Source: Pyrenula massariospora (Eukaryota > Ascomycota > Eurotiomycetes > Pyrenulales > Pyrenulaceae). From it: a DNA stretch of 64,000 bases. The stretch spans positions 124,001 to 188,000 of the forward strand of contig JAGFMI010000020.1 in the NCBI GenBank assembly GCA_021030905.1, given 5' to 3'. Each line of letters starts with the position of its first letter. Within the stretch, counting starts at the first letter, position 1. The notes beneath the pieces are model-generated. The model did no database searches, had not been told where the DNA came from, and worked only from the letters and a program-made list of their open reading frames with translations. Positions 12,497 to 38,699 of this stretch are shown piece after piece. Position numbers and translations under genes: made by a program.

Positions 12497-13462
12497 TTAC
12501 TCACGTCGTATCGAACTAATGGCTGGCAACGCGTACGAGAATGCCATCCACATATTCCACAATCGAAATGTCTTCTTGTCTTCTGCAACAGTCCTCCCAA
12601 TAAGACCTCGGAAAGAGACAACAACGCCCAGCAGACTATACGCTACCAGCGCCCAAATTGACAGCTTCCAGTACCAAGAACAGGTCAAAGTCCACGCCAA
12701 TGTAAAACATGTCGTCACGTACCTGGCCGGCTTGTCTCCAATTGTCAAAGGAAGCGTGAACCGGTTACGAAGAGCATCCCCAGCTTGGTCATACATATCT
12801 TGCATCTGGACAGTCGAGAACACCACACAAGCCATTATAGAGGTCCACTGCGCTAATTGACGCGTGACTGGGAGCGCAAATCCCAGCGCCACCTCCATTG
12901 CGCCTGTGGAAAAGCAGCTGTAGCCACAAGCATTGATGAAGTTGCGGCTCATCCAAGTCCAGTCCGCCCCGCCTAAATGATTATACCAGTAGCCCAGTGC
13001 TATCAAAGCCAGACATTGCGCTAGTCCACCCAATCGAATGCTCCCGAGCACCGCCAAGCTGTAGCCGAAGATCATAGCTACTCGGGCTTGTTCGGCTGTG
13101 AGCCGTTTGGAAGGCAGCGGTCGCCATGGCTTATTCGCTCCGTCCTCCAAGATCGATGCTGGATGACGCTGATTGTCCATGACGAAAGGCAAAAGATTGA
13201 TCCAGGTCCATAACAGTACAAGTGGTGCTCGTCTGGCAGTCTGTGCTGTGGCAGATACGGTCTCAATGCCAAAAGTTGGTGCCGCGATGGCATTGAGGAC
13301 ACCGAAGATCGTCGAAGGGATAATAATCGTTTTCAAATCAGTGTAAGTGAACAGCCAGATGGTTATCAGATGGTAGGTACAAGAGCTTTGGTCCTCAAGC
13401 CAAGACTCCGCCTTCACAGCAGCGCCTCGTTTTTGGATGATATCAAGTGACAGGTATTTCAT
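12497..13462 (-). CDS. UbiA-family membrane terpene cyclase / prenyltransferase
   Basis: A 321-aa polytopic membrane protein, probably single-exon. UbiA enzymes use two Asp-rich motifs to hold Mg2+-diphosphate. Motif 1 lies around N97 and E106-D107 and runs into 'NKPWRPLPSKRLT'. Motif 2 is D222-xx-D225-xxx-D229 within 'QDMYDQAGDALRNR'. The 'WLFTYTDLKTIIIPSTIFG' entry helix and 'NKPWRP' block are those of the fungal branch containing Fma-TC of the fumagillin pathway, which cyclises farnesyl diphosphate to beta-trans-bergamotene. Aromatic prenyltransferases share the fold, so cyclase versus transferase is open. Near the 3' end a GTGAG donor at SSIR could create a one-residue-different terminus; it changes little. 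It is the leftmost core gene of the cluster. Confidence 0.8.
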   Translation of the reverse strand: MKYLSLDIIQKRGAAVKAESWLEDQSSCTYHLITIWLFTYTDLKTIIIPSTIFGVLNAIAAPTFGIETVSATAQTARRAPLVLLWTWINLLPFVMDNQRHPASILEDGANKPWRPLPSKRLTAEQARVAMIFGYSLAVLGSIRLGGLAQCLALIALGYWYNHLGGADWTWMSRNFINACGYSCFSTGAMEVALGFALPVTRQLAQWTSIMACVVFSTVQMQDMYDQAGDALRNRFTLPLTIGDKPARYVTTCFTLAWTLTCSWYWKLSIWALVAYSLLGVVVSFRGLIGRTVAEDKKTFRLWNMWMAFSYALPAISSIRRE

Positions 13463-14472
13463 ATCAACTGTTGGCTTTTAACTCCGATAGTCGGTATTGT
13501 CCGATGCGTTGCGCAAATGCTTTGAGTGATTAGTCTTTCGTACTAAAACTTCGTCTCGTTAAATTTCTTGCCTAATGTAGGTGATGTGCACAGATCTATC
13601 AAAGTCAACAGCTCCACAGATTCTCCCATGAATATATAATGGCTTCTGTTGAATACTTTGGTTTGTAAGCTCATATCACCTACCCGCACAGTTCCAGAGT
13701 TGCTTACGTCTCAGGGCAAGGCTCTCTGTGAAACACTACGCCGGACCGATTACAACATATTCTTCCATACCGGGTGATGAACTACCAAATTGGTCTCATT
13801 TAGTCAAATCAACCAACTTGAAGATTAGGAAAACATCTATTTAGTAAAATAAATAAATTAAGATGAATGGCTTGGACATGTGTTGGTCAAGACCTGCTTC
13901 GATTCGAGCGCCACCAAAAGCTGACAGAACTGAGACATTACAGTCTTGATATCGAACTAACTAATTTCGTTCGCAGCCACTTTCGCTAAACCTTGACAAA
14001 GACTTTGTCAGCCCTCGCATATGACCTTAATGGCTGGAGCTGTTGTTTCAATCGCTTAGCAGCTGGATCAGACTTTCGCGAGTCCACCTCGGCACTCTTT
14101 TACCTGTTCATGCAACTGAAATCACATCTGATGACAGCATCGCTCTTGGTGCCCGTTTAGGTCAAAGACTAGGTAACGTGCCAACCTATTCAGGGCTGTA
14201 CTATCAAGCACTAGAGTCTCATGATCCAAAAAGCATCAACAGGGCTTTCTTTTACGATAGAAATCTACTGCTTGCATTCGGAACTGTCCATTCGAGCGTC
14301 ATACAAATTGTACAGCTTTGCCAAAGAAGGTTTGGAACTTCTATCGGCGTATAATGCTCATATCAAAGAGCCGTACTAAAATTGTATATTCAAAAAGATA
14401 CTAATAGAACATCAACGCATAGCTGCTGCTCCATGGTCTGGCAGACTTCTGTAAATTATTTTACATTAATGA
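13463..14472. other. intergenic; no convincing gene
   Basis: Holds the promoter of the UbiA gene and the 3' end of the MFS gene. A 103-codon plus-strand frame at 14043-14354 has no recognisable domain and was not called. A short AT-rich patch lies near 13840. Confidence 0.4.
13631..13640 (-). promoter_or_regulatory. TATA-like element upstream of UbiA gene
   Basis: ATTATATATT on the minus strand, about 170 nt upstream of the UbiA start codon, in otherwise mixed sequence. A TATA-box role is inferred from sequence and position only. Confidence 0.35.
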
Positions 14473-16151
14473 TTAGGCTTTGTTTGCAACTTCCTTCTCT
14501 CTTTTGAGGTTCTTCCACTTCATCGGACCTGCGCAAATCAGTGCCAGCAGCGTCAACGGGATGGCGAGGATGAACACATCGTGCAGTGCGCGGCTGAAGA
14601 GTTGGATCAGTGACGACAACTGTGCAGGGGAAACAAGTTTTCTTATCGCTGTTGCACCAGCGCTCAGCAAAGATGCTCCATCGACGTTAGTGACATGAAG
14701 TTCAGCTAGGCCATTTGCAAGCCGATTGCGAATGATCGTATTGCCCACAGACACGAAGATAGCACCCGCGAGATTCTGAGAGAAAAGAACCAGTGCGATA
14801 CCAATCGGCACATCCTTTGGCTGCAGCACTGCTTGGACAGCAAGGAAGTACTGCTGCCGAGCCGCGCCCAAGCCTGCACCATTGAGGATCTCAAAGATCG
14901 CCCATTTAGGCACGGATTTGTTGTCGTACAGTGTCGTGAATAGCCCACTGCCAATTGCTCCGATGGCAAGACCAACAAGTAGCGGTGGATTGAAGTAGCC
15001 GGTCTTGGTGACGATAATACTGATGAATGTCGCAGCAAGAAAATTAGCAGCCATCCATGGAATCATGTTCACTCCTGATGTGACCGGCGATACCCCGCCC
15101 ACCACCTGAAACCAGTATGGCAAGTAGAAGATCGGCACGAAGGTCGCTCCAGACTGAAAGAATGCCGAGGATATTGTCGATGCAACCGTCCGTTCTCCGA
15201 TGATCCGGAGCGGCAAAAGTGCTTCTGTGCCCCGGAGATGCTGCCAGAGAATGAAGGCAATGGCTCCAACGCCCGAGCCGGCTACCAGGCCGATGATTGT
15301 CGCATCGCGCCATCGATACGTGACACCGCCCCATTGTAGGGCTAGGAGGAGCATCGTAACATCAGCAATTACCAGACAACCGCCTATCAAATCCAGCGCA
15401 GCGATCTTCTCCCAGAAGCTCAGTTCACTATCTTCTTTCCTTTGCGATGTGAAAAAGATCATAGTGCAGAGAACTGTAACCGCTCCTATTGGTAAATTGA
15501 TCCAGAAGCACCATCGCCAAGTAACCCCCGAGGTTAATGTTCCACCGATGATCGGACCGCATACAAGCCCAATGCCATATCTAGTAATCCGCGAGCATCA
15601 GTACTGCTTGAAAGATAACCATTCTCGAAGGGTGGTAACACGAACAATGTACCAAGCATACTAATATATATCGGTCTCTTCTGAAGCGGCGCGATCAACG
15701 CAACCATGTTTAGATTTCCGGTCAAAACTCCCGCGCATCCAAGACCCGCAAGTGCTCTTCCGACGATGAAAGCCACGGACACAGGTGCCACTGCGCAGAT
15801 CAAGCTTCCGATCAAGAACGCGGCCAGCGCGACAAAGTAAGTAAAACGAACATTGAAGTGCTTGTACAGTTGACCGTAGATAGGTTGCAAAGCACAGGAA
15901 CTGAGGAGATATGCGCTGCCATACCAGCCCACATCACTCGGAGACTCGAAGTCGTTTGTGATTTGTGGTATCGCGGTTGTTACGATCGTCTGGTCAAGGC
16001 CAACGAGGAATGCTGCGAGACATGCTCCGCACATCAAAAGATTAAGCTGTATCTGTCTGGGGTACTTGTTCTCGGTCGACTCGGGCTCGGTCTGCTCTTC
16101 ATGTTCAATGTGCCTCTGGGAAGACTCTTCATCCAGTGGTGAGTCGGTCAT
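14473..16151 (-). CDS. MFS efflux transporter, DHA2-type (14-helix)
   Basis: Exons 16151-15646 and 15580-14473 give 537 aa. After a hydrophilic acidic N-terminus (about 1-40), helix 1 carries 'LDQTIVTTAIPQI', the DHA2 drug:H+ antiporter signature. Motif A follows ('PIYGQLYKHFNVR'), and motif C-like Gly-rich helices appear in 'GPIIGG' after the splice. The intron is 65 nt in phase 2. Its donor reads GTTCGT, which is weak, but it is the only one that restores the family sequence 'SMLGTL-YGIGLVCGPIIGG'. About fourteen hydrophobic helices are visible. Cluster-encoded DHA2 pumps commonly export the product or give self-resistance. It lies between the UbiA gene and the second MFS gene and is transcribed with the former. 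Confidence 0.85.
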
Positions 16152-18004
16152 ATCGGTTGCCCTTTTGTGGTAAATCGAGTCTTGCCCGGATTTGAGGGTT
16201 TTTGACCCGGCGGAAGTGGGCTGCCATGCTGGCTGTGCGTCGTCATTATGATTACGACAGGCATCATGGCACCGTACTGCGGCCTTGAGATGCTTTCAAT
16301 CCCTGAAAAGACTTTGATTTCCATCTATGGCTTTGATTCGAAAGATCGGAAGTCATTGAACTCGTCAGCCAACAAGGATTCCCAAGCAGTGGATCATTCC
16401 CAAATCGAATAAAGAGACAGAAGGCAGTAGGTCAGACCTGACGCTGTTGGAGACAGCCAACTATTTCCTGATATCGACCCATGGGAGCCACACCGTTAGA
16501 CCGTTGCAAATGCCGAGACAACGGTCTCCATTGTATCCGAGACGAGCAGGCATCGCAGGGAGACATTCTTCGTCAAGGCGTGTGCTCGTTTTGATTCGCG
16601 GTTTGTATAACGGCTGAATGCCAGAACTGAGGGCGTACAGGAGTAGGACCGATGGGGCTGAGATGTTGAGTCTGCGGCAAGGATCACCATGCATTCCGCG
16701 CGACAGGGATTGCCCTAGTTTTTAAGCAGGATGTCTTGCAGGAGCAACAGCTAGATTTGGGAGCCTTTAAAGCTCCGAGCCGAATCTGCCAATAGCGCCA
16801 ACTATCTGGGGTGAGCACATCTCCTAGTGAATGTTGTTGTATTGAATGGTAAGTTTTTGTATTGTTCCAAGTTTCGTAAGGTAAGAGAACAAACCTATGT
16901 AATGCACTGAATGACTCCTAAGCAAGTGCAACCCAATGACGTGACAGTCCGAGCCCCCCATAAAACTAAACCTAATCAGGCTTCCCTCCCAGCCACCATA
17001 ATGTAATCTTTTATAATATATTACAAGTTATAAAATTTAATTTTATTTATTTCATAATCTCTTTTAATGAATTCTCAGAGATAGTTGTATTTTGCTTAAA
17101 TGTTATGCCTAATAGGGTCTGCCGAGATATACTAAGGCCCTCTGAGGATACTCGCCACCGATCCGTCAAAGTTTCGAGTCTTGATATACTAAGGTATAGG
17201 CTACAGCTTATATCATTATGCTGTCTGCCTGTTGTCGCCCCCTTAAGACCTCACATTAAAAAATGAATTTATAATTTATATAGAAAGCCAAGAAAGGGAC
17301 CGAAACGTTTTTTTATTTGAAATATAATAACTTTGTAAGGTGGGACTATCTCACAAAAAATTTTAGTAAAGAAATTTAGCAGTGTAATAGAGAGCTCATA
17401 AGATTGTGTGGGAAGCTTGACTGGCGAGCTGTCAACTGCGTCTTTTGGTCGGGGGTGCACAAAAGAGTGTCCGGTTAGAACCCTGCACTAACTGGGGAGG
17501 TCCATGACATCTGGCTCCCACCCTTACAGTCCCCAAATGAGACTGTTATCTCCCGCTGAGAATGTCAATGACGCCAACCTTGCCGACGTGCCGGGATGTC
17601 TGACACTCCTACTATGCACAGTACTAAATAGCTCGCCTGTACCTTGCCCTAGCTAAAAGTTCGGAATGCATGTCCGTGAAAAGGTAACAGGACGAGTGGC
17701 TGTCAACCCACAGGTCTGGAAGCAACCCCTCGCCAATGACGCCCGGAAACGACCAACCCATCCAAAGGCACTCCGGTTGCCGATCGATCCATCGACCGAT
17801 ACGGGTTACGTTCTGATTACGCCTCACAGAAATCATTGTTCGCCTCCCATGTAATCTCCGTCGGCCCAGGGTCGCCCATCTTTAGCTCAACGCAGCCATT
17901 AACCGGCAACAAAAACGCGGTCCCTATCCAGATCCTGTCCTTGTTCCTCCGCGTGCCTCGAGAAAGTCAGCAACTCCCTTGGTTGTGGTATTGAAAACTA
18001 TGCT
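16152..18004. other. 1.85-kb intergenic region with AT-rich islands
   Basis: Divergent promoter region between two transporter genes. It contains two AT-rich islands (about 16993-17110 and 17255-17400), made of runs of A, T and TA. It also holds a repeated 12-mer GATATACTAAGG, near 17126 and 17183. The AT-rich pieces look like decayed repeats rather than genes. No coding gene was supported. Confidence 0.5.
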
Positions 18005-19865
18005 ATGGGCCTAGGCATCCTCGAACCCAGGTCACACGAGAGACTCGTTCCGGGAACGGTGCATATCCTCCATGATGAGGATACGGCGCAGGTGTTCCTC
18101 AACCCCCAGCCTACAGATTCGCCCAATGACCCCCTGGTAAGGCCAACTCTGTCAGCGAATAGCCGAACGATCGTTAGCTGACAAGCAGCAAGCGCTGGCC
18201 GCGATGGAAGAAACACTTGGTCGTCCTCGACATTGCTGTAGCGTGCGGACTTTGTGGCATTCAAGGTACCTCGCATGAACTCGTTTACTGACGTGGCGAC
18301 CAAGGCTATCTATTGACTACTACATATGAAGGGACGTGTCTTGCAGTCGCAGTGCTACCGATCACCAAGGAGTTGAACATCACGATCAATCAGACTGAGT
18401 CATTCACTGCCTACTCTTCTCTCTTCACCGCCGTCGGTTGTGTATTCTCCGCCGTCTTTGCTCGCGTTATCGGCAAGCGACCGGTGTACTTGATCTCTGG
18501 AGCGCTTGGCACGGCAGGCGCAGGATGGAATGCGGTGGCTACGAGTTATGGAAGCTTTTTGGGCTCGAGAGTCATCTATGGTATTGGTGCTGGCGCCTTT
18601 GAATCTCTTACGCTAGCTACTATTGGCGACATGTACTTTGTGAGTGTGGAGCCCACCTTTTTAGTAGCTCCGCTTATTTTTATTCGCAATGCTGACCGAA
18701 TGTTCAATCATTAGGTCCATGAAAGAGGACGCAGTGTGGCCTTCTTCAGTTTCATCGCTTTGGGCTGCACACAGCTCTCACCCGTTCTAGGTGGATACCT
18801 GACTGATACTTATGGATGGCGCTCTCAATTTTGGGCTCTTCTTGCCTTCTGGCTTGCCGTAATGATCCTTCTGATATTTGCGTGTCCGGAGACAACTTTC
18901 AATCGGCCTGTGCGAAGCGAAACAGGCGATCCATCGCCAAACGGAGCATCGATTGAGAGCGGAGATCCAGGTATGAGCGGCTATTGCAAGGAAGATCATA
19001 TGAATAGTGAAGGAGAGATTGTCGAGCGGCGAAGATCTTTTGCTCGAGAGCTCTTGCCGTATCGTCGCATTCATTCTGGTGTCAGCCTGATCGATGCGGC
19101 CATCCATTTCTTTGTCACTGGCCTCTACCCAATCGTTTGGTTCTCGTTCGTGGTACGTGGCCAACACTCCACCATCCAGTGAACTGAGCAATGACTAACT
19201 TGGTGTGTCAGATTCTGGGCACGTATCTTGCCTGGTTCCTAGGCATCAACGTGACTCTCGCTCAGATCTTCGGCAGCCGTCCGATTCTCTTCACACCAAC
19301 ACAGATCGGCTATCTAAATACCTTTGGCTTCCCTGGAGCATTAGCCGCAGAACTGTTCCTCCAATCATTCGCCGATCGCAGTTGCAAATGGCTGGCAAAG
19401 CGAAACAATAACATACACGAGCCAGAATTCCGTCTTTTCATGATCATTCCAGCGGTCATCATCGAAGTCTTGGCTCTCGCACTCTTTGGCTGGTACGCCG
19501 GAGACGTGGCGGAGCACCGTGAGATTAGCTGGGTTGCGGCGTCCTTCCTCTTTGGCATGGTTGTCTTTGCACTTGTCAATGGACAGTCTGTCGCATTTTC
19601 GTACTTGCTCGATGCCCATCATGAGATCAGTATTGAGGCAGGTATGTTCGCCGTTATGTTGAGAAGTTTCTTGGCCTATGGGGCGGGCACATTTGTGCCG
19701 CGGTGGTTAGAGGGTAGCGGTGTTGCCCATACATTCTACGAAATTGCGGGATTGCAGGGTGGATTAATCACGATTTTGACGGTTCTTATGTATATGTTTG
19801 GGAAGAGAGTGCGGGATTTTATAGGTCAGCATAATCCGGTGCGGGCGTTCAATGTCAAGATCTGA
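18005..19865 (+). CDS. MFS transporter, DHA1-type (12-helix)
   Basis: Five exons, 18005-18136, 18193-18265, 18305-18639, 18715-19152 and 19212-19865, give 543 aa. The N-terminus carries the fungal DHA1 lead-in 'GTVHIL...' and 'DPNDPL'-like text (here SPNDPL), followed by 'RWPRWKKH' and helix 1. Motif A-like 'RVIGKRPVYLIS' lies near residue 150, and the Gly-rich helix 'VIYGIGAGAFESLTLATIGDMYF' follows. After the central loop (about 290-340, with 'RRSFARELLPY') six more helices follow. Intron 2 is only 39 nt but contains TACTGAC and keeps the frame. This is a likely proton-driven exporter of small molecules or drugs. It sits directly upstream of the NRPS-like gene on the same strand. Confidence 0.8.
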
Positions 19866-20883
19866 GGCAAATCTCTCAACTCGTAGGGCATTTGGAGGTC
19901 GCTGTATTTTTGAGATTGGATTTTCTGCGAATGCGGCTAGCCTAAGGTGCCTGAGTACTTCAGTGTTTGCTGTTCCTATCCACGTGTTTCCAGGCACTGT
20001 ATCGACCCGTGTAATAACGGCAAGGACATGTTTGACGAGAGACCACAGCACAGATGAATTTTCCCAGTACATAATAGAATTAAATCGTAAGGAGCACACT
20101 ACCAAACTACCTCTGGTGCTTTTTCTTAATGCGTAAAAGGTACATCATCTTCATATCCACATTTTCAACTTCCTATATCAGGGTTGTGGAAGGAGATTGA
20201 ACCGGTATAATGTGAGTATCGAACGTCCAAGTGCAGCGACCTTTGCTCAAACCATTCCACTGCCATCTTGGGCCTTAGCTACTATTGTTCAATGATAATG
20301 AGTCGAAATGTTCCGACGTCGATGTTGGAGCTGCTTTCGAATTTTGGAATACTGCCAGATGCACCTTGATGTAGTGGGACGATGGTATTCAAACAATTGT
20401 CTTAGCTGCTTTCGCGAGACCTCTCTTTGACTGCTTTCTACGCGTCTCTTATGCCCAAAACGCTACGCTTCGACGACCAGCACATCGCTAGAAAGCCGTC
20501 GCTAAATCAAGCTTGCATGACCTATCGGGTACAGCCACATGACAACTGTTGATCAGCAGTCAAGCATTTCGCGATGGCTGTTGCCGGGGTTGTGGGAAAT
20601 TGGCGGCATTGTCTCCTAAGAGCTGACCGAGTCGGTGTTACGTCGCCATGGGCCTCGACTAGGAGCTTAGCCCGGTGAAGGGTATATTACTTGTCAAACA
20701 CGCCACTGACTCAAATTAGCTGCCTGGCTGAGAACCTTCTAAGTTGTGACCTAGCATGTGTGCACGAGATACCGCGGAGTTCATCCGGGATGTCTATGAT
20801 CTCTTTGAATGACCTGAAGATTTAATCAACCACTCGGAACTTTACGACGGTCTCACAGTGCGCTCTCTCACTCCAGCCTACGG
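19866..20883. other. intergenic, promoter of NRPS-like gene
   Basis: One kilobase with no supported gene. It separates two same-strand cluster genes and should contain the promoter of the reductase gene. Confidence 0.4.
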
Positions 20884-23800
20884 ATGATGCAGGGCGCATG
20901 TATCGAATACAAAGGTCGCCGCCTACTGCCCGCAGCCCTGGACTTCGTGGGCAAAACGACGCCTGACCGTGTGTACGCTTCAATACCCTCTACGCATGAC
21001 GTTGGAGATGGCTTCACACATGTAACGGCCGAGCAGATTCTACATGCTGCAGATGCTCTTGCAGCTTGGATAAGCGACCGCTACGGAAGGAGTGATTGCT
21101 TCGAGACACTTGCATATGTTGGACTATCTGATCTTCGGTATGCTATCTTCTTCCATGCAACTGTCAAGTGTGGTTACAAGGTATGAGTACAAATCCGAAC
21201 CTGTTCGTAGAGAACTTTCATGCAAGAAGTCCATTTAGTCTTGGTTTTGATCGAGCTCACCAGTTCGGCAGGTGCTATTCTTCTCGCCGAGAAACGCTAC
21301 GCAACAGAACATTTCTCTCCTAGAGCAGACCGAATGCACGAAAGTCTTCTTCGCCCCAGAGCTTGGTGCGGTAATCCAACAGCTGAAGCAAGCCATCGAA
21401 GGCCGGCACATACTCACTCAGCCGATTGCACCGGTTTCTGCCTGGGTGGCGGCATACAGTATACCTTTTCCGTACACAAAAACATTTGAGGATGCTAAGA
21501 ATGATCCTGTCGTTATCTTGCACTCCTCTGGGTCCACTGGTAAAGGCAAACCGGCGAATAGTCTCACATTGTATTGGGTTAGCTGACCATAGGCATCAGG
21601 AGCACCAAAACCGATCACGCAGACGCATCAATTCTTTGCAAACTTGGACCGCCAGCTTCCGCCGATTGATGGTCGAGAGACTGGCGGTCCGACGCTGTTT
21701 GACTATAGTGGCGGCGGGTTCTATTTCTCGCCTTTTCCATGTTATCACCTCGCTGGATTTCAAGCGCAGTGTTTTTACCCTGTGTTTGGGCGCTCTTGTT
21801 CGCTTGCGATGGGCATACCCGATAGGCCTGCGACGGCAGAATTGGTACGCTGAGAATCATCTCCAATGGAAGATCATGTTAGCTAACTTCACCAAAGACG
21901 CTCAAAGTAATGGAACAGCACTCATTGAGAATCCTGCATTCGCCTCCGTCCATCATTGAAACCCTCAGCCGCATTCCAAAAGCCTTACCACTCCTCCGGA
22001 ACTTAGAGCACATCATTTACGCAGGCGGCCCGCTTGAGAAAAGTTGCGGAGACTTGTTGATCCAGAATACGAAGCTTTCCACAATTTGCACGTTTGGCTC
22101 CGGTTGCTGCAGTGTCACATACTGACTACAGTCAGATGGGTCAACAGAGACAGGCAATGTTGCGAGTCTGATTCCGAACAGCGATGATTGGCAATATCTC
22201 GAGTTCCATCCGTCATGGAAGCCGACACTAGAGCCAACGTACAATGGAAGCTTCGAAATGGTTGTCAAGAAGGACGCAGAAGCCGATCAGTATCGCGCTA
22301 TTGGGGCAACTATCATGAGAGCCCAAAAACAGTACCGTTCAAGAGATCTGTTTGTTTCACATCCTACTAAAACAGGACTGTGGAGATTTGGTAAGTTCTG
22401 CAGCGCTTGTCGGGTTGGGTGAAGAGCTGAAGACCTGCGGTACAGCCGGCCGTCGAGACGATATTGTGGTCCTTTCGAATGGCGAGAAGTGGAACCCTGT
22501 ACCTTCGGAAGCGATAATATTGGGCTATAGCAGCGCCAGTGGAGTTCTAGCAGTTGGCAACGGGAAGTCCCAACCAGCGATCCTGATTGAAGTGGCAGAA
22601 AGCGAAAGTAGTCTTGAAGGCCATCTTGATGCCGTCTGGCCGCTAGTCGAAAAAGCAAACCAGAGCACTCAAGCGCATGGCCGATTGGTTAGATCTAAGA
22701 TCAAGTTCGTCAAACCTGGTGATCTTGTCCGGTCCCCCAAAGGAACGGTAATCCGCACGGCGACAGAGGAGAACTTGCGCGAACTCATTGATCAGATATA
22801 CAGCGACGACGATGTACCAATATCTTCACTTGAAAACCGTGTAAAGGGTTGCGGCGAAGTTTCCCGGGATTCCATACTGAGCCTTGTTCGAGATTGTTTC
22901 GCGCAACTGAAGGCGTTCAGAATGATCGGAGAAAATGATGATCTCTTTCTCAACGGACTGGACTCCCTCAACTCAATCGAGATCGCCAGGAACATTAGAA
23001 AAGAACTTGCTGCTTCGTTCGAGCTTGACTCACTGTCAAGTATCAACCATCAGCTAATATTTGAGAATCCAAAAATATACGACCTCGCAGATCACGTCTA
23101 TCGGATGTTGTCAGCAATTAGATGCGAGTCAAATCTCGGACGAGAGGCTGAAACAGTATCACGCATGATCAGTAAATATTCGCCAACCTTGGGAGCAATT
23201 CCAACAAAGAACAGCAATCTTCGCATTATATTGACAGGGTCGACCGGATCGCTCGGCCAGCAGCTCCTCCAAACGCTCGTTAAAAGTTCAAGCATTCAAG
23301 CGGTAACCTGTCTAGATCGCAACCGGGCTGCAGAGTCCATCGCTCGCCGAAATATGTCGTCTGCATTCGCTTTAGAGAAGGCGAGGTTCAAGGCCTGTGA
23401 CATCGGGCATTCAAATCTCGGTTTGACGGAGCACGAACTTGGACTCTTCGAGGAGGTTGATGCCGTACTCCATTGCGCTTGGAATGTGAACTTCAATCAC
23501 GGCTTGGCTTCGTTCGAGCCTCAGGTCCGTGCAATTGCAGATTTTTGTTCGATTCTGACGAGGAGCTCCAAGAAGCCGCGGTTCTTTTTCGTCTCATCCG
23601 CGGCTGCAGTAATGAATTATCGTCGACCAGGTGTCGAGCGGACTGTCATTCCAGAGAACATTATCCATGAGGAAACAGCTCCGCTGCCAATGGGCTACGG
23701 TCAGTCGAAGTATGTTGCCGAACGCATTCTCGGTAATGCGGCCCGGAGACAAAATCTACCCGTCACAATTTTACGTCTGGGGCAAGTCACTGGTAATGTG

Positions 23801-24343
23801 CATGGTGGCTTAGACAAGCACGAACAACCGTTGGAATTCCTGGCGCCTTGGAATACGACAGAGTGGATACCATCACTGATAGCGACCTCATCAGCGCTCG
23901 GCCAAATACCGGACAATATGGCGCCCGCAAATTGGCTTGCAGGCAACCAAGTCGCATCTGTCATCCTCGAGTTGCTCTTGCACGACCTTGTATCAGATAT
24001 TAAACTACAAGTCTACAACATCGTGAACCCTCAAGCAGCTGAGTGGACATCGCTCGTCCCGGCAATTCAGGCCGGGCTGCCTGCGCCGTGCCGAACGGGC
24101 TCGTTCCATGATTGGCTGGCATTGTTGAAAAAACTCGATACAGAGGATCCAGTCAACCTTGTGAAGTATCCATCGCTGAAACTGATCAACTTTTTGAACT
24201 ATCTAGAGGATCGTCCGGACCGAGTGGAGTTTGCGATCGAGAGAGCTCAGGCGGCGAGCCCGACCCTGGCAAATATGTCACCGATTTCAGCGGATGACAT
24301 GGCGCAGTGGATGGAACAGTGGGCGTTTCAACAGCACTTATAG
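20884..24343 (+). CDS. NRPS-like A-T-R carboxylic acid reductase
   Basis: Six exons, 20884-21180, 21272-21539, 21600-21844, 21898-22102, 22136-22390 and 22446-24343, give 1055 aa. The adenylation domain (about 1-525) has 'HSSGSTGAPKPIT' near 184-195, 'TFGS..STETG' near 337-347 and the terminal Lys in 'RSPKGTVIR' near 522. The carrier domain has the phosphopantetheine Ser in 'NGLDSLNS' (about 597). The reductase domain starts 'ILTGSTGSLG' (about 688), an NAD(P)H Rossmann loop, and contains 'YGQSKYVAERIL' with the SDR Tyr and Lys. Such proteins activate a carboxylic acid as AMP ester, load it as thioester and reduce it to aldehyde or alcohol. No condensation domain is present. The fourth intron is only 33 nt and covers an in-frame stop, so functionality depends on that splice. 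Confidence 0.85.
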
Positions 24344-24826: not shown

Positions 24827-24974
24827 CTATCCCTTGTCTGGCTGCAAATGGGCCAATTTTCTAATCGGTCCCGCTCTTGTCCGTGCTATCCCAACAATCT
24901 AATGATATTGGATAGTGTGGACCATTTTGTGACCAATTAGAACATTGGCTCATTTGCGGCAGGACAAGGGATAG
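24827..24974. repeat. MITE-like element with 44-bp imperfect inverted repeats
   Basis: Left arm 24827-24870 begins CTATCCCTTGTC and ends CTAATCGGTC. Right arm 24931-24974 is its reverse complement with about seven mismatches, starting GACCAATTAG and ending GACAAGGGATAG. The 60-bp middle holds a further small palindrome (GCTATCC...GGATAG). There is no coding capacity. No clear target-site duplication is visible, so transposition is inferred from structure alone. Confidence 0.65.
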
Positions 24975-26087: not shown

Positions 26088-26138
26088 AGCTCTAAGTCTC
26101 GCGACCGATACTTGGTGGATTCTTTTTCATCAGAAAGA

Positions 26139-28595: not shown

Positions 28596-30543
28596 ATGAG
28601 TACAAATACCGAATTCGACTTCATCATCGCTGGAGGCGGAACAGCGGGCCTCGTCGTCGCTGCACGACTTTCAGAAAATCCAAATGTACAAGTACTAGTC
28701 ATAGAAGCAGGCACGGATCATGCGGAAGAATCGCGTGTAAAAGTGCCTGGAAAATGGTTTACACTGATAGGGAGCGATGTCGATTGGGGATTCACGTCAA
28801 CTGAGCAGGTTCGTTCTCTCCTCTCTACACACTCTCCTAACTACTGCGACTCTATCTTGCTGGCTATTTAGAAAGCATTGCCTATCTATCGGCTTATAAT
28901 GGCTGATACAAACGTTCCAATAGCCGGGACTTTATGGACGCACACTTGGGCAGCCCCAAGGTCGCTTGCTCGGCGGCAGCAGCGCGATCAACGGGCAAGC
29001 CTTCATTGCCGCCTCGTCGTCCGTGATTGATGCCTGGGCAAGCCTCGGAAATCCCAGTTGGACATGGGACAAGATGGCACCTTACTATCGCAAATTCCAC
29101 ACCCTCGATCTTCCAAAAAGCCCCGAACACCGCAAGCATCTCGGTCTGGAGCACCTTGACGAGTCAACCCACGGTAAATCCGGTCCCATAAAGGTGTACT
29201 ATGCGACGCCCTTGAGCGAGCCTCTTGCGCCAGCATGGACGGAAACATTTCGACAGCTCGGCTTCGAAGCCATGAGCGACCCAGCCTCTGGCGCTGTAAT
29301 TGGCGGGTTCAGTTCTCCGGCGACCATTGATGCTCAGAGTAAAGAGCGAAGCCATTCCGCAAATGCCCACTGGAAAGAAGCATGGGGACGACCAAACCTG
29401 CACTTACTTACTGATACGATCGTCAAGGAGGTCTTACTCAAGGGCAGCGACGGAGATGCTGTGGCTACTGGAGTCAAGATTCAACGTGGCGGAGAAACGG
29501 AGCAAATATTCGCTGAGCGGGAGGTTATACTTGCCGCTGGAGCGTACCAGACACCGAAAATCTTGGAGCTTTCTGGGATTGGACACGCAGACATACTCAA
29601 GAGCAAAGGAATCGACCCACTCATCGCGAACCCAGGGGTTGGGGAGAACCTACAAGACCATCTCATGACCGGAATCAGCTTCGAAGTCAACGACGACGTC
29701 CAGACCCTTGACGCACTCCGCATGAAAGACTCGGCAGCGACTCAAGCGGCAGAAGAGGCCTACAACATGCGTAAAGAGGGTCCCTACGCTCTCGGCGGCT
29801 TCAACTACTACTCTGTGATGCCCATCACGCACTCCTCCTCCCCGCCTCCCATCACCGCCTCCCTTGCCGCGCACCCTTCCGCTCTTGACACCAACGGCAA
29901 CACCGGTCTCCAGCGCCAATACGCCTTCCTCACCTCCGTCGTTCAAAGCACGACCCAGGGCTCCGGCGGCATCTACCTCTCCCCGCGCGGCACGACCTAC
30001 GGCGCCAGCACCCGCGCACAGGACTACAGCATCAGCACCCTCCCCGGGAAATACATCACGCTGGGCCTCACGTTACTGCAGCCTTTCTCGCGGGGCAACG
30101 TCCACATCGCCTCCACGGACGGGGCGGAGCCCCCGACCATCGACCCCCGCGCGCTCAGCAACCCGCTCGACGTCGACGTCATGGCGGCGCACCTCGCGTT
30201 CATCGAGCGGCTCGCGGCGACCGCGCCCTTGAAGGATTTTCTGAAGGTCGGCGGGAGACGGAATGCGGCCGGCGCGGTGGGCAGGGATGCGGAGGCGGCG
30301 AGGGAGTGGGTGCGGAGAAGCGCGCTGAGCCAGTGGCATCCGTGCGGGACGTGCGCGATGATGGGGCGGGAGATGGGAGGCGTGGTAGGGGAGCGGTTGG
30401 TGGTTTACGGGACGCGGAATCTGCGGGTCGCCGATGCGAGTGTGATGCCGATCATTCCGCGGGGCAATATTCAGAGTGGTGTGTACATGGTTGCGGAGAG
30501 GGCGGCGGATTTGATCAAGGAGGATCATGGATTGGGCATGTAG
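28596..30543 (+). CDS. GMC-family FAD-dependent oxidoreductase
   Basis: Two exons, 28596-28808 and 28924-30543, with a phase-0 intron give 610 aa. The N-terminal FAD-binding Rossmann motif reads 'FIIAGGGTAGLVVAARL' (about 9-25). The GMC signature 'RLLGGSSAINGQAFIA' follows just after the splice. The second GMC signature 'GAYQTPKILELSGIG' lies mid-protein. The C-terminal catalytic pair is visible as H543 in 'SQWHPCGTCAM' and N586 in 'PRGNIQSG'. GMC enzymes oxidise alcohols, including sugars, aryl alcohols and pathway intermediates. No signal peptide is seen, so it probably works inside the cell on a cluster intermediate. The second half of the gene is markedly GC-rich compared with its surroundings. 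Confidence 0.9.
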
Positions 30544-32627
30544 AGGGATCTGTGTGAGTGTGTGGATGGAGGTCGGGGAGGGGGGAGAGGGGCAAGACCT
30601 GGATTCTGTCAATTAATGCAGGAGAGCGGATGGCGTGTTAGCTTAGGAAACTTTCTGCACGTGCGACTTTTCACAAGGCTCATGTCGACGCTAGAATTCT
30701 CATGACGCAAGACGCGCGTCTGTAGCACAACATCAGTAGTACTGAATTAGGCTGCACATTGAAGATGCTGCGTGCTTAGCCGCTCACAGATGGAGAATTT
30801 TTTGTTATCGAGCCACTACAGCTTTGCAATTTCGGAAGCGGACGTATGCAGCTACTAATAACAATAAAATTTCAAAAAATTACTGTAACAATGAGATTAA
30901 AATTTGTTATTATTAAACTTAGGCAGGGATTTTTGTAAGTCCTTATTTTGCGCACAACCTCATGTCGCGCACACCTTAAATAGAAATTGCCCCCTTTCTA
31001 TAAATAAAGATATTATCATTTTGAAAAAATTCATTTTACGAGTAATAATTTTAAACTTGTTTAAATCCCACTTTGTATTAAGACATAGAAAAGTAACATT
31101 TTTATATCTTTTAATCTTTAATAAAAATAGATGAGCTTCTATCATAAAGAATATACCTTTTCTATACTTAATAAAATTTTAATTATAAGCAGACTGAATC
31201 AGAGGCGGTTTAAATTAAAGGTATCTAGGCATTAGGTACGACGTGGTGTTCAGCTAACATATTGAAATAGGGGTGAGCTTTCGAAGCGAGTGAACCATCG
31301 AGCATTCTTGAGCCGCAGAACCTCAATGAGCGATCCAATTCATGGGAGACGAAACCCGCTAGTGATTAGCCCTGGCTTAGACCCGACGGCCACGGCTCGC
31401 TTGAGAGACGATTGGATCGTAAAGGTAATGCGTAACGGTATTGACGATACGAGTATCGTCGCTCAAATAGAACGGTCTTTGACAACAAGGCAGAGCACGC
31501 AGACGGCATATAAACGCCCTCTTCTGATGGCACGGCAATTGCTCTCCCTGTCACGCTAGTTGAAGCCGAGTCAAAGAGCCGAAACTTCAACCCGACCTCG
31601 AACCTTCTTCTAAATAGCTTGCTGCTGTCCAACACACCTTTTCGGGCTGGACAAACTCATTCATCGGAAGCAGAAATGATTACGACAAGGGTAGAGATAC
31701 CCACACAACTTCAAGTGCTTATCAATCGCTTCGGGCCGTCCCTCGAATCGGTAAAAGATCAACGAGACGGCCATAACGCCTGCAAGGATCCCGCGGCTTT
31801 CCGGACCACTTACCGAATTACTAGACGCATTCTTGGGATTCGCGCCCGCTATCGGTCGATCCATGCAGCTTGGATGTACCACGTCCGTCCGATAACGAAA
31901 CCGTAGAAATAAACATGTGCAAGTAAGAACGGTTAGAGCAATACAGCTACAATTCGCATGGTTGGCCTGTTAAAAATAAATTATAAATATTTATAAATGT
32001 TTAAATAACTCAGAAAGTATCTTTATAAACATTAAGTGTTTCAAGGACATCTAAAATATTGTTGAATATGCATCCCTTTCAGAACGTATTAAGGCCAAAA
32101 AATAGAGCCCCCCGACCCGGGTAGTATACTTTGGAAGAATTGTTCATATGAAAGCAACCGACCGACCAACCAACCAACCGTAAATCATATTTGGAAATAG
32201 TCAGGCAAAAGCAGGAAAAGTAATATACGCTTGTTTGGGACATGGCTGAAGTATACATTCAATCAAAAGTTATCGGCTATGGTAACTCTGATCGTCTCGG
32301 TAGCCACAGTCTTGGTTATAGAAGCCGGCAGCAGGGAAAATCATAGGATCAGGGAAGTTTGAGGAGAATTAAGGACAATCATTGGTCAAATGTCAATATT
32401 TGCTGCTTGCAATTATGTGCCCAAGGGGCAAGGTGAACCCAAGGGGCTAAGTTCTGGTTGACCCATGGCAAATATAGTACAGTACTGTTGAGCCCGTATT
32501 ACACCTTATATCTTTTAGTGTCCCTGCCGCTCGGCTTTCCTCCAGAACTTTGTGCGTAGAATCCGCCCTCCAGCCTTCCTACCATCCGCCTTTATTCTCC
32601 GTTGGGCAATCCGGGCGGTTGTGGACT
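30544..32627. other. 2-kb intergenic region with AT-rich islands
   Basis: About 30840-31200 and 31965-32070 are strongly AT-rich, with long A/T runs and few G or C. Between them are short frames without family resemblance (31290-31920). A small CCAA/CCGA tandem stretch occurs near 32158-32179. This looks like degraded repeat sequence; no gene was supported. Confidence 0.5.
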
Positions 32628-33920
32628 ATGTCAACGCCACATGGCAATGACCAAGGCCCTTCTCTGCTAGCGGCATCCTATTCCCTAGTCATCCTTTCTG
32701 CAATCGCAGTCACCCTTCGATTTTTTGGCCGACATGTCGAGCGTAAGGTTGGGTTCTGGTGGGATGACTGGCTATCGCTGGTCTCATTGGTGAGACACTT
32801 GCAGCATCCTTTTTGACTCTACTAAGATTCAAGGTAGGCTTTCGTTTGCGTCAATTGCGGTTTGACAATATACTGGGTCCATATCGGTCTGGGAAAACAT
32901 ATCAACGAAGTCTCGACTCCAGCCTCTCGTCTCCTCCTGATTGACTACGTGAACGAGATCATGTACACCAATGGCATCTCATCTATAAAAGTGTCAGTCG
33001 TGGTGTTTTATCTACGCGTTTTTAAGACTGTTAAGCTGTACCGATTGTGCTGTTGGATCACGATCGCAATCCTTGTCATCTGGTGCATATTCTTCGATTT
33101 CCGCCTCATTTTCACCTGCGTTCCTGTCCAGAAGTTCTGGGATCCCACAATCGACCATGGTAGTTGCAGGCCCGAGAAGCCTGATTACATGGCCACGGCT
33201 ATATCGAACATTGTGATCGACGTTCTAATCCTAACTTTACCTATGCCTATGATCTGGCGCTTGAACGCGCCCACACTACGAAAGGTTGGGTTGGTGATGA
33301 TTTTCATTGCAGGCTACAGGTAGGTCTCAGCCCTGCTTCGCGCGGGAGAACGCTCAATGTCTGCAGTGTCGTTATTCTTTCTGTTCTGCGACTTGTCTCC
33401 ATCGTTCAGCTAGGGAATGCGCCCCAGGAGGACATATCTTGTGAGTTTTGTTCCAGACTTTAACATCGAAATAGGTGCTGACCCTCGACTTCAAGGGAAC
33501 ATTGCCAATCCTGAGCTTTTGGTAGTTTGCGAAATGTCCTTAGCTCTAATAAGTAGCTGCGTTCCAGCGATCTTTACTCTGGCCAGACATGTTATCCGGC
33601 AGCATTTCCCAAGCCTCGCGGCAAAACTGACCAACTCCAAGGGCTCCTCAGCTGCGAAAACCGTCAGTACTGGGTTGACTATGAATTCCGCATACTCGCG
33701 AAATGCCAACAGATTTGTGCCGCTACATGACTCAGCTCCGCAAGAGTCGGAGGAGGTTCTCTTGAAAGGAGTGCCAAGCACAAGGGCACATGTGGAGTCC
33801 ACAGCGCCAGGTAACTCCCAAAGCCCCTTTTGGACAGATGGTCCCGTGAGAGTAGAGATACCGTTGCAAGAGATTCACGTTCGAGATGATGTAGACGTTC
33901 ATAGGGAGCTGCGATCGTAA
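32628..33920 (+). CDS. PTH11-like / fungal rhodopsin-fold membrane protein
   Basis: Four exons, 32628-32789, 32838-33319, 33367-33440 and 33496-33920, give 380 aa. Seven hydrophobic helices are visible. The family's diagnostic 'WWDDWLSL' at the end of helix 2 and the 'DVLILTLPMPMIWRL' helix both match the fungal integral-membrane (rhodopsin-like, PTH11-related) family. The third exon reads 'SVVILSVLRLVSIVQLG' and the splice restores 'EDISW', both typical of the family. The C-terminal 120 residues are polar and Ser-rich. Such proteins are considered GPCR-like sensors; some lie in metabolite clusters. The ligand is unknown. Confidence 0.82.
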
Positions 33921-34631
33921 AATCTAACTACGCACTCTTCTATACAAAAGTCCAATACCTTTTGGGAAGCAGTCCATCAGAAGACTTTGCCATCTTCATT
34001 GTTGAATCTTAAAATCCGATTTACTCTAAAATGGGTACGCCGGTATCTAAGACTCTTTGACACTGCTATCGTGAAGCAATTGGTCAAGCCGACTTGCACT
34101 GAGCTCTCCAATAATACTCACATCAAAGGTTGAAGAAGAGCTGGCTCCTTCGATCTTGCATGCAAGAATGCAACGTAGCCACCCTATTTCCGGACAGGAA
34201 CTTACAGAAGACATGTATCTCTGCAAATCACTTCAGGAAAAAATGGAAAACACAAATAAATTCAGTGAGGTTAATGATAATTTCAATAAACTTTTGAAGC
34301 CATACTGTCTACAGACAGCTTCTTATATAGATTAGATATACGATTATCTGGGGACAACTTTCCATACCAATTAGATATGCAACTATCTAGGATGGCCATT
34401 TATACTAACTATATGTATATCTATCTGTAAACGCCAAGGCTCATGGAACAATCTGCAGGCACGAACCACTTCTCTACAATGAACCCTGCCTATAAGCAAT
34501 CGCCATTCAGATTATTTCGGCGAATGAGCAAAGAGGTGTAACGCAATTCACCGCCTCAGCACACACCCCTTTTTATAATTACTCTCTACTTTTAATATGC
34601 CCAGCCTTGTCAACACGACGAATTCCAAAAT
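33921..34631. other. intergenic between convergent genes
   Basis: Holds the 3' ends of the rhodopsin-like gene and of the minus-strand methyltransferase gene. A locally repetitive stretch around 34320-34430 has three variants of 'TATATAGATTAGATAT'/'ATTAGATATGCAACTATC'. No gene was seen. Confidence 0.4.
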
Positions 34632-35757
34632 CTACCCAGCCCGCTTCCTCGCAACTACAAGCACCATCCCCATCCTCACACTCATGCCCTTCATTATCTC
34701 GTCCATCGCGCCATGGTACAGCTCCAACAACTCCATCTCCCTCACGGTCTCGTCGTCCAGCCGTTCAAGCATCTCCCTCAGAGACAGCAGATGGATCTGG
34801 CTAGCCGGCTGCGCTAGATCGTCCGGCACGGCGCGCTGCTCGGATGCGAGCACGTTCGCAATGTCAGAATGGGACTGGAGAAGGTGAGGGAGTTTGCGGA
34901 TCCATCTGTTCAAGGAAGCCCCTTTTGGTCAGCTCGACTCATTTGACGATATGTTTTGCGGTCTTACCCTAGGTCTAGTTGGACGCCGCTCCGCGTCACC
35001 GCCTCGTAGATTCGCGTGTAAAACGCGTCGCAGTCGGCGCGTTGTACGTCTGGGCTTGCGGGAATACGCGGCAGCGATGCGACGTCGGCCTCGTTCCATT
35101 GGAGATAGCCCCCTGGTTCTGCGGAGGTGGTCAGTCAATCAATTTCCCGAACTTTTGAGTAGGTACCGCTGTTGTCACAGCAATAAGCTCACTTAGAAGG
35201 CTCAGGAGATTGTTGAGAAGGGCTGAGGGGTCCCCTCTATGGACGAGCAGCGCGGCGAGCCCAATGTAGACGATGTCGTATTTTCCTACTAGCTCGCTTA
35301 AGATCGGGGCTATTGCATCGAGCTGGCGCAGGGAGACGTGGGCGGGGAGCCAGCTCTTGTGGGGGAATTGCTGCGCGGAGATATCGAAGCCGTCTAGAGT
35401 TGCATTTGGGAGTTCTTTGGCGAGATCGATGAGCCAGATGCTATGAACGTTTCCATCGGCGTTAGCTAAAGACAGAATGACTTCCGACTGTGGCTTTCTG
35501 TTACCCTGTGCCGCATGCCACATCGGCAATGCTGATGTAAGCATCTTTCTCAACGGGAATCTCATGATGAAGCAGATATCCAAGTTCTCTTCGCCACATC
35601 CAATGCTGAAGGTATAGCCTTTCTCAGAAAGATCCGTCAGACGATTGGTAGCTCATGCAGCCTTAACCTAACATACGCAGCAGACATACCGTGTAGAGGC
35701 GTGGAAATCACGGCTAAGAAGGTAGCCGTCCCCTTTGTTCAACAATTTTCTATCCAT
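34632..35757 (-). CDS. SAM-dependent methyltransferase (LaeA/UMTA-like fold)
   Basis: Five exons, 35757-35690, 35618-35505, 35440-35193, 35118-34968 and 34905-34632, give 284 aa in one frame. The start ATG begins 'MDRKLLNKGDGYLLSRD', then 'STRLYLQHWMWRRELGYLLH', the N-terminal lead of this fungal family. SAM-binding motif I is split by intron 2 and restored on splicing as 'IADVACGTG' + 'IWLIDLAKELPNA' (about 52-72). 'LDGFDIS' and 'KPGGYLQWNEAD' give motif II and the post-strand-4 loop. It should methylate an O or N atom of a small molecule. It is transcribed divergently from the adenylating-enzyme gene across a 722-bp shared promoter. Confidence 0.85.
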
Positions 35758-36479
35758 ATCCTTCTTTCGTGTCGAGAGTTGGTGCAACTCGCTCAGAGCT
35801 TGCACGTCTTACATGTAGGCCAGACTTCATTGTTCAGCTATGGCAGCTGGGACCGAGCCGTTCGGAATATGCTCGGTCGCCTTGCGGCGGTTGCTTGTTT
35901 CAAGCATGGACTGAGCAGCTCTCTGTGGAACATGCCGATGGAGCCGAGCAGTCTCATTACCCGTTGACCGCGTGAACTGAAAAGGGCAGCGCCATTTCGG
36001 TGGTTATCCGGCGGAGCTCGTTCGAGAGTGCCAGGTGCGGATCGCTTCGGCCCATCGGCTCAATCAACACGAACCACTGCGCACCCATCGCGCGGCCGCG
36101 GTCTCTGGTTGGATCCCTGATCTAATCGGCATCATACTATGTATGAAGGCGCAGTTGAAAAATCTTAGATTGCAGATCACACAGTTATCAGTGGAGCGAC
36201 GGTTGCGGAGGTGTGGGTGAGACCCGGGCACGGGCCGGGTAACTTGTTTCCATTGCGGGAGCCCCTTGACCGTAGCTCCGGCCGAATGCCGGGAAGAGAT
36301 ACGTACCCGCATACCACTTATGTCTTTCGCCTATAATATGACCTCAACGCGGCTCGTAATGATCGAGCCACGAAGTAGAAGTATAATTAGCCCGCAATGA
36401 GAGGTTGTTGGAATTGTCTCACTCGAGCATCAACTTCGTAGCTTCCCGTGGACTTCGCTTACATTACCCAGGAACTCTT
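35758..36479. promoter_or_regulatory. shared divergent promoter region
   Basis: The 722 bp between the start codons of the minus-strand methyltransferase and the plus-strand adenylating enzyme. It includes GC palindromic patches such as GCGCGGCCGCGG near 36080-36100 and CCCGGGCACGGGCCGGG near 36222-36239. These could be binding sites for a pathway regulator, but no specific factor can be named. No coding gene was supported within it. Confidence 0.45.
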
Positions 36480-38265
36480 ATGATAGATGATGAAGTAGTC
36501 ACGATCTATTCGGAGCCAAAGACCTCCAGTATGAAGAAAGAGATAGAGTACGGCCGGAAGCTCTTGCCCGCAATCATCGACGAGAGAGCAAGGCAGACAC
36601 CAAGCCGAGTTCTCTTGTCCTTGGCCAGCACGGCCAACATGGAAGATGGCTTCGAAGATTTGTCGTATGGACGTTTTGCCCAGGCGATTGATCGGTGTGC
36701 ATTCTGGCTTGAGAAAACAATTGGTAAGCACGAAGAAACGACACAAGCTAAGCTCGTCTTTGCCAGTCTCCCACGCCACGACCTTCGTGCTATCCTGCTG
36801 ATTATGGCGGCGCCTAAGACCGGTCACCAGGTATGTAGATTGGAACGACCAACAAACTGTTCGTCCAGGCTAGTCGCGACGCTAACTGTTCAAGATGTAC
36901 TGGAGTCAGCCATTTGGTGCAGTGGAAGACATTCTCGCCGCACTTTACCACATGGGCTGTGATACGTTCTTGAAGCCGACACCTTGCCCGGAAGCCATCG
37001 AGGAGGTCTTGAAACAACATCCTCTACCAACCTTCAACATTCCCACTCTTGACACATGGCTAAAACCCGAGTACGATCACGATGCCAAAGCCTACCCATA
37101 TGAAGCCGGTCTGGAAGAGGCTGGCCACCGACCATTCAATGTCTTCCAAACATCTGGAACAACGGGCGATCCAAAGCCAATCATTGTCAGGAACGGTGCA
37201 GCGTCTAAGATGGACATCTTCAAGAAATTGCCAAGCCTAGGAGAGCGACCACATCTTATCGCCCGTTTTAAAGGTCAGCGAGTTCTGTCAACATTTGGAT
37301 GGTACCAGTATGCCGGATTTCTCCTCAGCTTGATCGGCGTCGTCCTATACGAATATGTCGGGGTCATGGCACCTGAGGTGCACGACTGGTCCGGTGAGCT
37401 GATGGTGGCCGCAATCCAGCACGGAAACGTACATTCATGTCTGGTCTATCCAGCCCTATGTGTGGACCTAGCCGCAGATGACCGAAAGCTACAAAAGGTC
37501 AAGCGCCTGGACTGGCTGGTCTTCGGTGGCTCCTCCATCCCTTTCTGGGCAGGGGAGAAGCTCGTACAGTACACCAAGGTCGGGCAAATCTTTGGCTCGA
37601 CCGAGGCCGGCATCTTTCCGCTGGATGGTCCTGATAAGCCCGAAGAATGGCCGTATCTTCGTCTCGCCCCTCAAAGTGGAGCAAAGTTCCGCCCTTTTCT
37701 TGACCAGTATTCTCATCTGACTATTATTCGGGAGAAAGAGCTGGAGTCATGGCAGCCTGTGTTTGTAAATTTTCCTGATCTTTATGAGTGGACCACTGGC
37801 GATTTATTCAGTCCTCATCCTTCCGAATCCGACCTTTGGCTTCCTGCTGGCCGAGTCGTCGATCTCTTCACGATCCCAGATGGAAGACAGTTCAATCCTG
37901 TCCCCATAGAAGTTGGCCTTGGCGAAGATCCCTTGATCTTGATGGCGATGGTCTGTGGGTTGGGCCCTACGGGAAAACTGGTCCTGCTGCTAACACCCCG
38001 AGCACCTCTCGTCGAGGGAGAAAAGCCTGCGGCTTTCATTGATCATGTGTGGCCAGCTATAAAGCACAGCTTTGACACCAATGGCCCCTATTGGGTACAG
38101 GAAATGCTGGATAAGAACTTCATCAGTATTACGCCGCCAACATGCCCGATCCAAAGAACTGGGGCGAAATGGAATGTCAATCGCAGAAAGACGATTGCTC
38201 TGCATGGTGAGATGCTCAAAGAAGCGTATGGACCTATCAGCTATCCTTACCGCGGGATCGCTTAA
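36480..38265 (+). CDS. stand-alone adenylating enzyme (NRPS-like A domain / acyl-AMP ligase)
   Basis: Two exons, 36480-36830 and 36895-38265, with a phase-0 intron give 573 aa. The N-terminus 'GRKLLPAIIDERARQTPSRV' closely parallels the start of the NRPS-like reductase in this window, so the two A domains belong to one family. ATP-binding 'FQTSGTTGDPKP' is near 201-212. 'FGSTEAGIFPL', 'WTTGDLF' and 'GRVVDLFTIPDGRQFNPVPIE' follow, and a terminal Lys occurs in 'RTGAKWNVNRRKT'. It ends about 25 residues later with no carrier or reductase domain. It could activate an acid for transfer by another enzyme, or it may be a truncated A-T-R protein. An inverted-repeat element starts immediately after the stop codon. 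Confidence 0.82.
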
Positions 38266-38299: not shown

Positions 38300-38349
38300 G
38301 ACGAGGAACACCAGCAAGGTTAGGTAGAAAAGAAGAGGGCCGCCCTGCT

Positions 38350-38693: not shown

Positions 38694-38699
38694 GGCAAG

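Follow-up and report, generated by a model that had tools for sequence, protein, structure and literature searches.

A UbiA-type cyclase candidate beside a predicted carboxylate reductase in Pyrenula massariospora: a possible sesquiterpenoid gene cluster

On contig JAGFMI010000020.1 (C12 below; assembly GCA_021030905.1) of the ascomycete Pyrenula massariospora, nine genes lie in a row between positions 12497 and 38265 of a 64,000-nucleotide stretch (contig positions 124,001 to 188,000; hereafter the window). They encode a UbiA-type membrane protein, two major facilitator superfamily (MFS) transporters, a protein like nonribosomal peptide synthetases with adenylation, thiolation and reductase domains (A-T-R), a cytochrome P450, a GMC oxidoreductase, a PTH11-like protein, a methyltransferase and a stand-alone AMP-binding protein. 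Do these genes serve one pathway and, if so, what does it make? We favour, tentatively and at a little less than an even chance, an uncharacterised fungal cluster that makes an oxidised sesquiterpenoid, possibly of bisabolane type. The observations behind this reading are gene models, protein families and active-site motifs, analysed within the host genome (37.8 Mb, 33 contigs). The published systems used for comparison were available in part, and statements about them refer to the parts available.

The cyclase candidate and its relatives in the genome

The UbiA-type gene (12497..13462, minus strand) is intronless and encodes a protein of 321 residues that matches PF01040 (E 6.8e-18). Its motif I, NQRHPASILED (97-107), is identical at 8 of 11 positions to the NQRHPGSVAED of Pb_BisA, and its motif II, QDMYDQAGD (221-229), which fits the pattern QDxxDxxxD, agrees with QDMYDQPGD at 8 of 9. 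Pb_BisA is described as a (Z)-gamma-bisabolene synthase of Penicillium brasilianum, where these motifs are numbered N95QRHPG100SVAED105 and QD219MYD222QPGD226 (PMC11745945). The tyrosine of a YN pair stands at position 160 of the window protein; in Tps1A, the replacements D100A, D215A, D218A, D222A and Y155A abolish the product (PMC9835599). Motif I does not fit the shorter NxxxGxxxD form of Tps1A. The aromatic-prenyltransferase motif NDxxDxxxD is absent from the 321 residues, and an aromatic prenyltransferase was rejected as first choice on this ground. The protein is best read as a candidate sesquiterpene cyclase with motifs of the BibS/Pb_BisA type; BibS is named as an alpha-bisabolol synthase in the Pb_BisA paper, which also refers to work from 2022 describing a subgroup whose motif I is distinct (PMC11745945). 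A sequence search of the PDB returned 6m31 as sole match (E 0.01), and an AlphaFold model of the protein alone, with a mean pLDDT (predicted local distance difference test) of 38.2, was left unused.

A profile search finds PF01040 at 8 places in the genome. Among the four members with motif I visible, the window protein is closest to Pb_BisA; the others match its motifs I and II at 8/11 and 5/9 (L004), 7/11 and 7/9 (L005) and 6/11 and 6/9 (L006) positions, and a further protein (L008) has motif II alone visible. Four UbiA-subgroup loci lie elsewhere in the genome, on contigs C29, C33, C30 and C7. The surroundings of the first two were inspected and hold a P450 in both cases, 4.5 kb away on C29 (sharing 37% identity with the window P450 across the matched part) and about 1 kb away on C33; this repeats the pairing of the Pb_bis, tps1 and fumagillin clusters. 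Yet another UbiA protein, with the motif NDILDQDID, is found at C3:335528-346722 (L003, L050, L051) together with a P450, an A-T protein without R domain and a 2-oxoglutarate-Fe(II) oxygenase. No ketoacyl synthase match lies near this set, which looks like a separate aromatic-prenyl cluster.

The carboxylate reductase, the second AMP-binding protein and a possible route

The A-T-R gene (20884..24343, plus strand; 6 exons, 1050 residues) is modelled with one GC-AG intron, and all three domains are detected in the product by Pfam (PF00501 2.6e-22, PF23562 6.4e-29, PF00550 1.4e-4, PF07993 8.7e-30). The carboxylate reductase (CAR) NcCAR has residues His237, Glu433, Ser595, Tyr844 and Lys848, mutation of which abolishes or lowers activity (PMC5826065); their equivalents are present here in PCYH at 235, GEK at 431, LDSL at 590 and GYGQSK at 835. 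GSTE and TGSTGSLG (TGxxGxxG) are also retained, and the best solved match of the R domain is chain 8aep_A (1.7e-40). With all tested key residues kept, the protein is predicted to be a carboxylate reductase. One splice choice bears on this prediction. The intron at 22088-22135 was read as a 48-base GC-AG intron (GCACGT...CAG), giving YGSTETG at A5. It was preferred among 24 frame-keeping GT-AG or GC-AG options in range, judged by eye against an alignment of paralogs, because it alone would place GSTE at the family spacing. An apparently damaged gene, with FGSETG at A5, had come from a 45-base GT-AG intron; it was dropped for the GC-AG model, pending transcripts.

The stand-alone AMP-binding protein (36480..38265, plus strand; 2 exons, 573 residues; PF00501 1.4e-16, PF23562 1.4e-7) contains an AMP-binding domain with A3 SGTTGDPK and A5 FGSTEAG, and Pfam found no T or R domain in it. 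Where the A-T-R family has PxxH and GEK, it has GWYQ and GRQ, that is, Gln at the His237 site and Arg at the Glu433 site. Since the equivalents of these two essential residues are missing, adenylation catalysis by this protein appears doubtful. With the A domain of the A-T-R it shares 24% identity over 501 aligned positions, and among solved chains it comes closest to 4-chlorobenzoyl-CoA ligases, with weak E values (0.0017 to 0.0087). Profile searches place PF23562 at 14 sites in the genome, the window's stand-alone protein lying outside those 14, and the existence of several paralogs shows that it belongs to a multi-copy family. In the crude gene models of these paralogs the His237 site is His in all five aligned. 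The Glu433 site is Gln (L052), Lys (L053) or Gly (L054) in three proteins without detected T or R domain, and Glu in the A-T protein of the C3 locus (L051, a gapped model) and in an A-T-R-like protein (L055).

The sequence-only reading had envisaged a UbiA-type enzyme and two adenylating enzymes leading to a sesquiterpenoid or prenylated compound that carries an activated or reduced acid. The cyclase side of this idea is supported by the motif match to Pb_BisA, which speaks for a sesquiterpenoid; the prenylated alternative becomes less likely because NDxxDxxxD is absent. The acid is in line with the carboxylate-reductase signature of the A-T-R. As for the adenylating pair, both proteins have the fold, but the stand-alone one is without the two catalytic equivalents, and the notion of two demonstrably active adenylating enzymes was rejected.

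From these features we infer substrates, an order of steps and a joint action as follows. The UbiA-fold membrane enzyme would ionise and cyclise farnesyl diphosphate (FPP), a bisabolane-type skeleton being the probable result. The P450, perhaps together with the GMC oxidoreductase, would oxidise a methyl group via the alcohol and the aldehyde towards the acid, the GMC enzyme interconverting alcohol and aldehyde. The A-T-R would adenylate a carboxylic acid, load it onto its carrier domain and reduce it to an aldehyde. An acid or hydroxyl group may be capped by the methyltransferase, and export of the product may fall to one MFS pump or to both. There are precedents for parts of this route: the UbiA cyclases of published clusters have a P450 as partner, and tps1 adds a methyltransferase that leads to an acid methyl ester (PMC9835599). 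Arpenibisabolane C bears a carboxylic acid, and its proposed origin is Pb_BisA plus a P450, in a pathway that its authors call hypothetical (PMC11745945). It could further be imagined, as an unlikely extension, that the A-T-R acts on a sesquiterpenoid acid delivered by the UbiA cyclase and the P450, and that the second AMP-binding protein, devoid of the CAR catalytic residues, has a new role, perhaps as a ligase or accessory protein.

One cluster or several

The remaining genes of the block complete this set. MFS1 (14473..16151, minus strand; 2 exons, 537 residues) matches PF07690 (1e-40) and the TRI12 family PF06609 (3.5e-9), and MFS2 (18005..19865, plus strand; 5 exons, 543 residues) matches PF07690 (5e-26). 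The P450 gene (26139..28226, plus strand; 8 exons, 553 residues; PF00067 7.9e-50) encodes the motifs AGSDT, ETLR and FSLGRSSCVG; relocating its intron 5 lifted the Pfam match from 159.7 to 170.4 bits. The GMC oxidoreductase (28596..30543, plus strand; 2 exons, 610 residues; PF00732 1.9e-36, PF05199 2.8e-31) has 7vkd_A (1.8e-90) and 4ynt_A (2.9e-90) as closest solved chains. These are followed by the PTH11-like membrane protein of the Fung_rhodopsin family (32628..33920, plus strand; 4 exons, 380 residues; PF20684 3.4e-59), whose role in a pathway is uncertain, and by the class I methyltransferase (34632..35757, minus strand; 5 exons, 284 residues; PF08242 1.6e-11 and related families).

All nine models are full-length and free of internal stops. 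They were made with a simple gene finder and hand splicing, transcript-free and with splice sites deduced from the sequence; the automatic gene finder had split or truncated several genes, including MFS2, the A-T-R and the P450. AAG acceptors seem the best reading for several introns of the MFS2, A-T-R, PTH11-like and AMP-binding genes, as does a GC donor for one. The best Pfam family lies above the curated cut-off for each of the nine proteins; the E values range from 6.8e-18 (UbiA) to 3.4e-59 (Fung_rhodopsin), with the AMP-binding protein at 1.4e-16 and the methyltransferase at 1.6e-11. The gene order given by the sequence-only reading is thus confirmed by complete models, and its family assignments, made from motifs, agree with Pfam for all nine. 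It had also stated that polyketide synthase (PKS), class I terpene synthase and condensation domains are lacking. None was found by Pfam in the 20 window models and open reading frames (ORFs) scanned, intergenic DNA lying outside the scan, but this holds with the caveat that a gene resembling class I terpene synthases stands just outside the window.

This gene belongs to the surroundings of the block. The class I family PF19086 has two partial matches in the genome, of which one falls on C12 next to the left edge of the window. There, a rough model (L066; 2433-3774, equal to C12:122032-123373) contains the motif NDIYSWEKE and lies about 0.6-2.0 kb to the left of the first base of the window. 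Some 13 kb and at least four predicted genes separate it from the UbiA gene, and a P450 piece is found further left (C12:119648-120352). The region is probably a separate terpene cluster. Within the window, four of 11 flanking ORFs gave no Pfam match and the rest matched ADIP, HET, MFS or DUF7730. Four DUF7730-like ORFs on the minus strand at 52487-59407, two of which exceed the Pfam cut-off, resemble a local gene family. Two palindromes were noted as well. An imperfect one (77%) with a 65-base inverted repeat lies between the A-T-R and P450 genes (24827..24974); no second copy was found in the genome, and it probably stands apart from the pathway, perhaps as an old, decayed element. Just downstream of the AMP-binding gene there is a nested palindrome (38329..38714), the inner 145-base part of which recurs in the genome with 13 other matches, 9 of them over at least 88 bases, like a miniature inverted-repeat transposable element.

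Biosynthetic, tailoring and transport genes are adjacent in the block. Nevertheless, a number of observations weigh against the reading as one sesquiterpenoid pathway. A shared promoter motif was not found when exact k-mers, Zn-cluster half sites and 4+4 dyads were compared between 8 regions and 14 controls, and the best dyad score of the cluster was equalled by 60 of 60 random region sets. No pathway regulator is present among the nine proteins according to Pfam. An AT-rich stretch that resembles the outcome of repeat-induced point mutation (RIP) at 30850..32140 (GC 0.42; RIP indices 0.93/0.99 for 31-32 kb; its sole genome match is itself) separates the first six genes, up to the GMC gene, from the last three, and is a possible internal cluster border. 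At the UbiA loci on C30 and C7, no P450 lies nearby among the matches listed (the best 92 of 262 and the best 78 of 184 candidates); the search with the best 92 of 262 did not list the window's own P450 either. The motif I pattern of the window protein is shared by three other UbiA proteins of the genome and therefore marks a subfamily, not a product. Finally, the substrate of the A-T-R is the weak point of the proposal. In a survey that sorts 84 fungal CARs into seven clades, two of them lacking a known member, the assigned substrates are amino acids, aminoadipate, aryl acids and some aliphatic ones; among these, StbB and AscB, with their farnesylated aryl acid, come nearest to using a terpenoid acid (PMC9605436).

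How do other explanations fare with these data? The block could be a mosaic, in which a small terpenoid set (UbiA, MFS, P450 and perhaps GMC) stands next to an unrelated A-T-R and, beyond the AT-rich stretch, a likewise unrelated group of PTH11-like, methyltransferase and AMP-binding genes. The missing promoter motif and the RIP-like stretch at 31-32 kb fit such a composition, and so does the genome at large: proteins of the A-T-R/AMP-binding type are common, 12 of the 14 PF23562 places being on other contigs or far from all 8 PF01040 places, and elsewhere an AMP-binding paralog (L052) has a PTH11-like gene at a distance of about 2.5 kb, so that this pair may travel without UbiA. Against it, nine complete genes of secondary-metabolism type follow one another at intergenic distances of 0.4-2.1 kb, and no housekeeping gene was found in between, which is how a fungal cluster looks. 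On balance, a mosaic seems somewhat unlikely. The claim that all nine genes act together is not borne out. The lack of a promoter motif and of a regulator, taken with the AT-rich stretch, makes a six-gene core likely and the other three genes possible: the core is most likely UbiA-MFS-MFS-ATR-P450-GMC, at 12.5-30.5 kb, and the membership of the PTH11-like, methyltransferase and AMP-binding genes is less certain.

A meroterpenoid would be obtained if the UbiA enzyme prenylated an aryl acid made elsewhere and the A-T-R reduced that acid to the aldehyde, a scheme used in stb and asc, or if a 4-hydroxybenzoate route of the aty, pleurotin or mos kind were used. Pairs of a UbiA-superfamily enzyme and an A-T-R are indeed known from stb/asc, as are PKS-less UbiA routes on 4-hydroxybenzoate. 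However, the window enzyme has cyclase-type motifs in place of NDxxDxxxD, and the enzyme that does have NDxxDxxxD, accompanied by a P450 and an A-T protein, sits at the C3 locus. The genome has 115 ketoacyl-synthase matches, all away from C12, and one aromatic ammonia-lyase match, which falls on C5; Pfam found neither a flavin-dependent monooxygenase (FMO) nor a cupin among the nine proteins. This origin is considered distinctly improbable. Still less credence is given to a sesquiterpenoid combined with a separately activated acid, where the A-T-R would convert an acid of the amino, aryl or aliphatic kind into an aldehyde or alcohol for attachment to the terpenoid and the AMP-binding protein would be ligase-like. 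It would explain why the block has two AMP-binding proteins and agrees with the substrates of known CAR clades, but no acyltransferase, condensation or thioesterase domain was found by Pfam in the nine models, and two conserved catalytic residues are missing from the stand-alone AMP-binding protein.

Relation to described clusters and meaning

The kinds of enzymes encoded by the block are all known, and what is unusual is mainly the presence of a membrane-bound UbiA-type cyclase candidate beside a predicted carboxylate reductase. The fumagillin cluster resembles the proposed sesquiterpenoid cluster in its UbiA-fold FPP cyclase and P450 processing and differs in having a PKS-derived part; it is not known to have an A-T-R. 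Fma-TC of that cluster is named in PMC9835599, PMC4205913 and PMC11745945. The Pb_bis cluster (Pb_BisA and the P450 Pb_BisB; PMC11745945) comes close, with nearly the same cyclase motifs (N95 and D219 there, N97 and D222 here), a proposed P450 partner and a carboxylic-acid product. An A-T-R, a GMC enzyme and a stand-alone AMP-binding protein are, however, unmentioned in the available part of that paper, and the likeness is one of motifs, not of full sequences. The tps1/tps2 clusters of Antrodia cinnamomea (PMC9835599) likewise combine a UbiA-type bisabolene synthase, with motif II QDxxDxxxD, with a P450 and a methyltransferase, whereas their motif I, Nxxx(G/A)xxxD, is two residues shorter than that of the window, an acid methyl ester is made and no A-T-R is reported in the text available.

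Other systems are similar in one half only. In the stb and asc clusters, a prenyl-handling UbiA-superfamily enzyme stands beside an A-T-R carboxylate reductase, but that prenyltransferase is a farnesyltransferase whose aryl-acid substrate comes from a PKS. The aty cluster for asperpentyn (PMC12356543) is described as a PKS-less route with UbiA and P450. There, the UbiA enzyme prenylates 4-hydroxybenzoate, an ammonia-lyase, an FMO, a cupin protein, a short-chain dehydrogenase/reductase and an aldehyde reductase are present, and an A-T-R is unmentioned in the part consulted. A cluster with both a UbiA-type cyclase and an A-T-R was not found in the open-access literature searched, partly available as it was, with most subscription papers lying outside.

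UbiA genes and atypical clusters are easily overlooked by cluster-finding programs. SMURF does not consider UbiA-like genes (PMC4205913), the fungiSMASH clusters of a fungus with four UbiA-like genes included none of them (PMC11574748), and antiSMASH did not detect one UbiA cluster (PMC11109268). If the proposal is true, the action of an A-T-R on a sesquiterpenoid acid would represent a biosynthetic logic that is new to the literature searched. A cluster that unites a UbiA cyclase with a CAR would widen the substrates of fungal CARs to terpenoid acids, and would point to unexplored sesquiterpenoid aldehydes.

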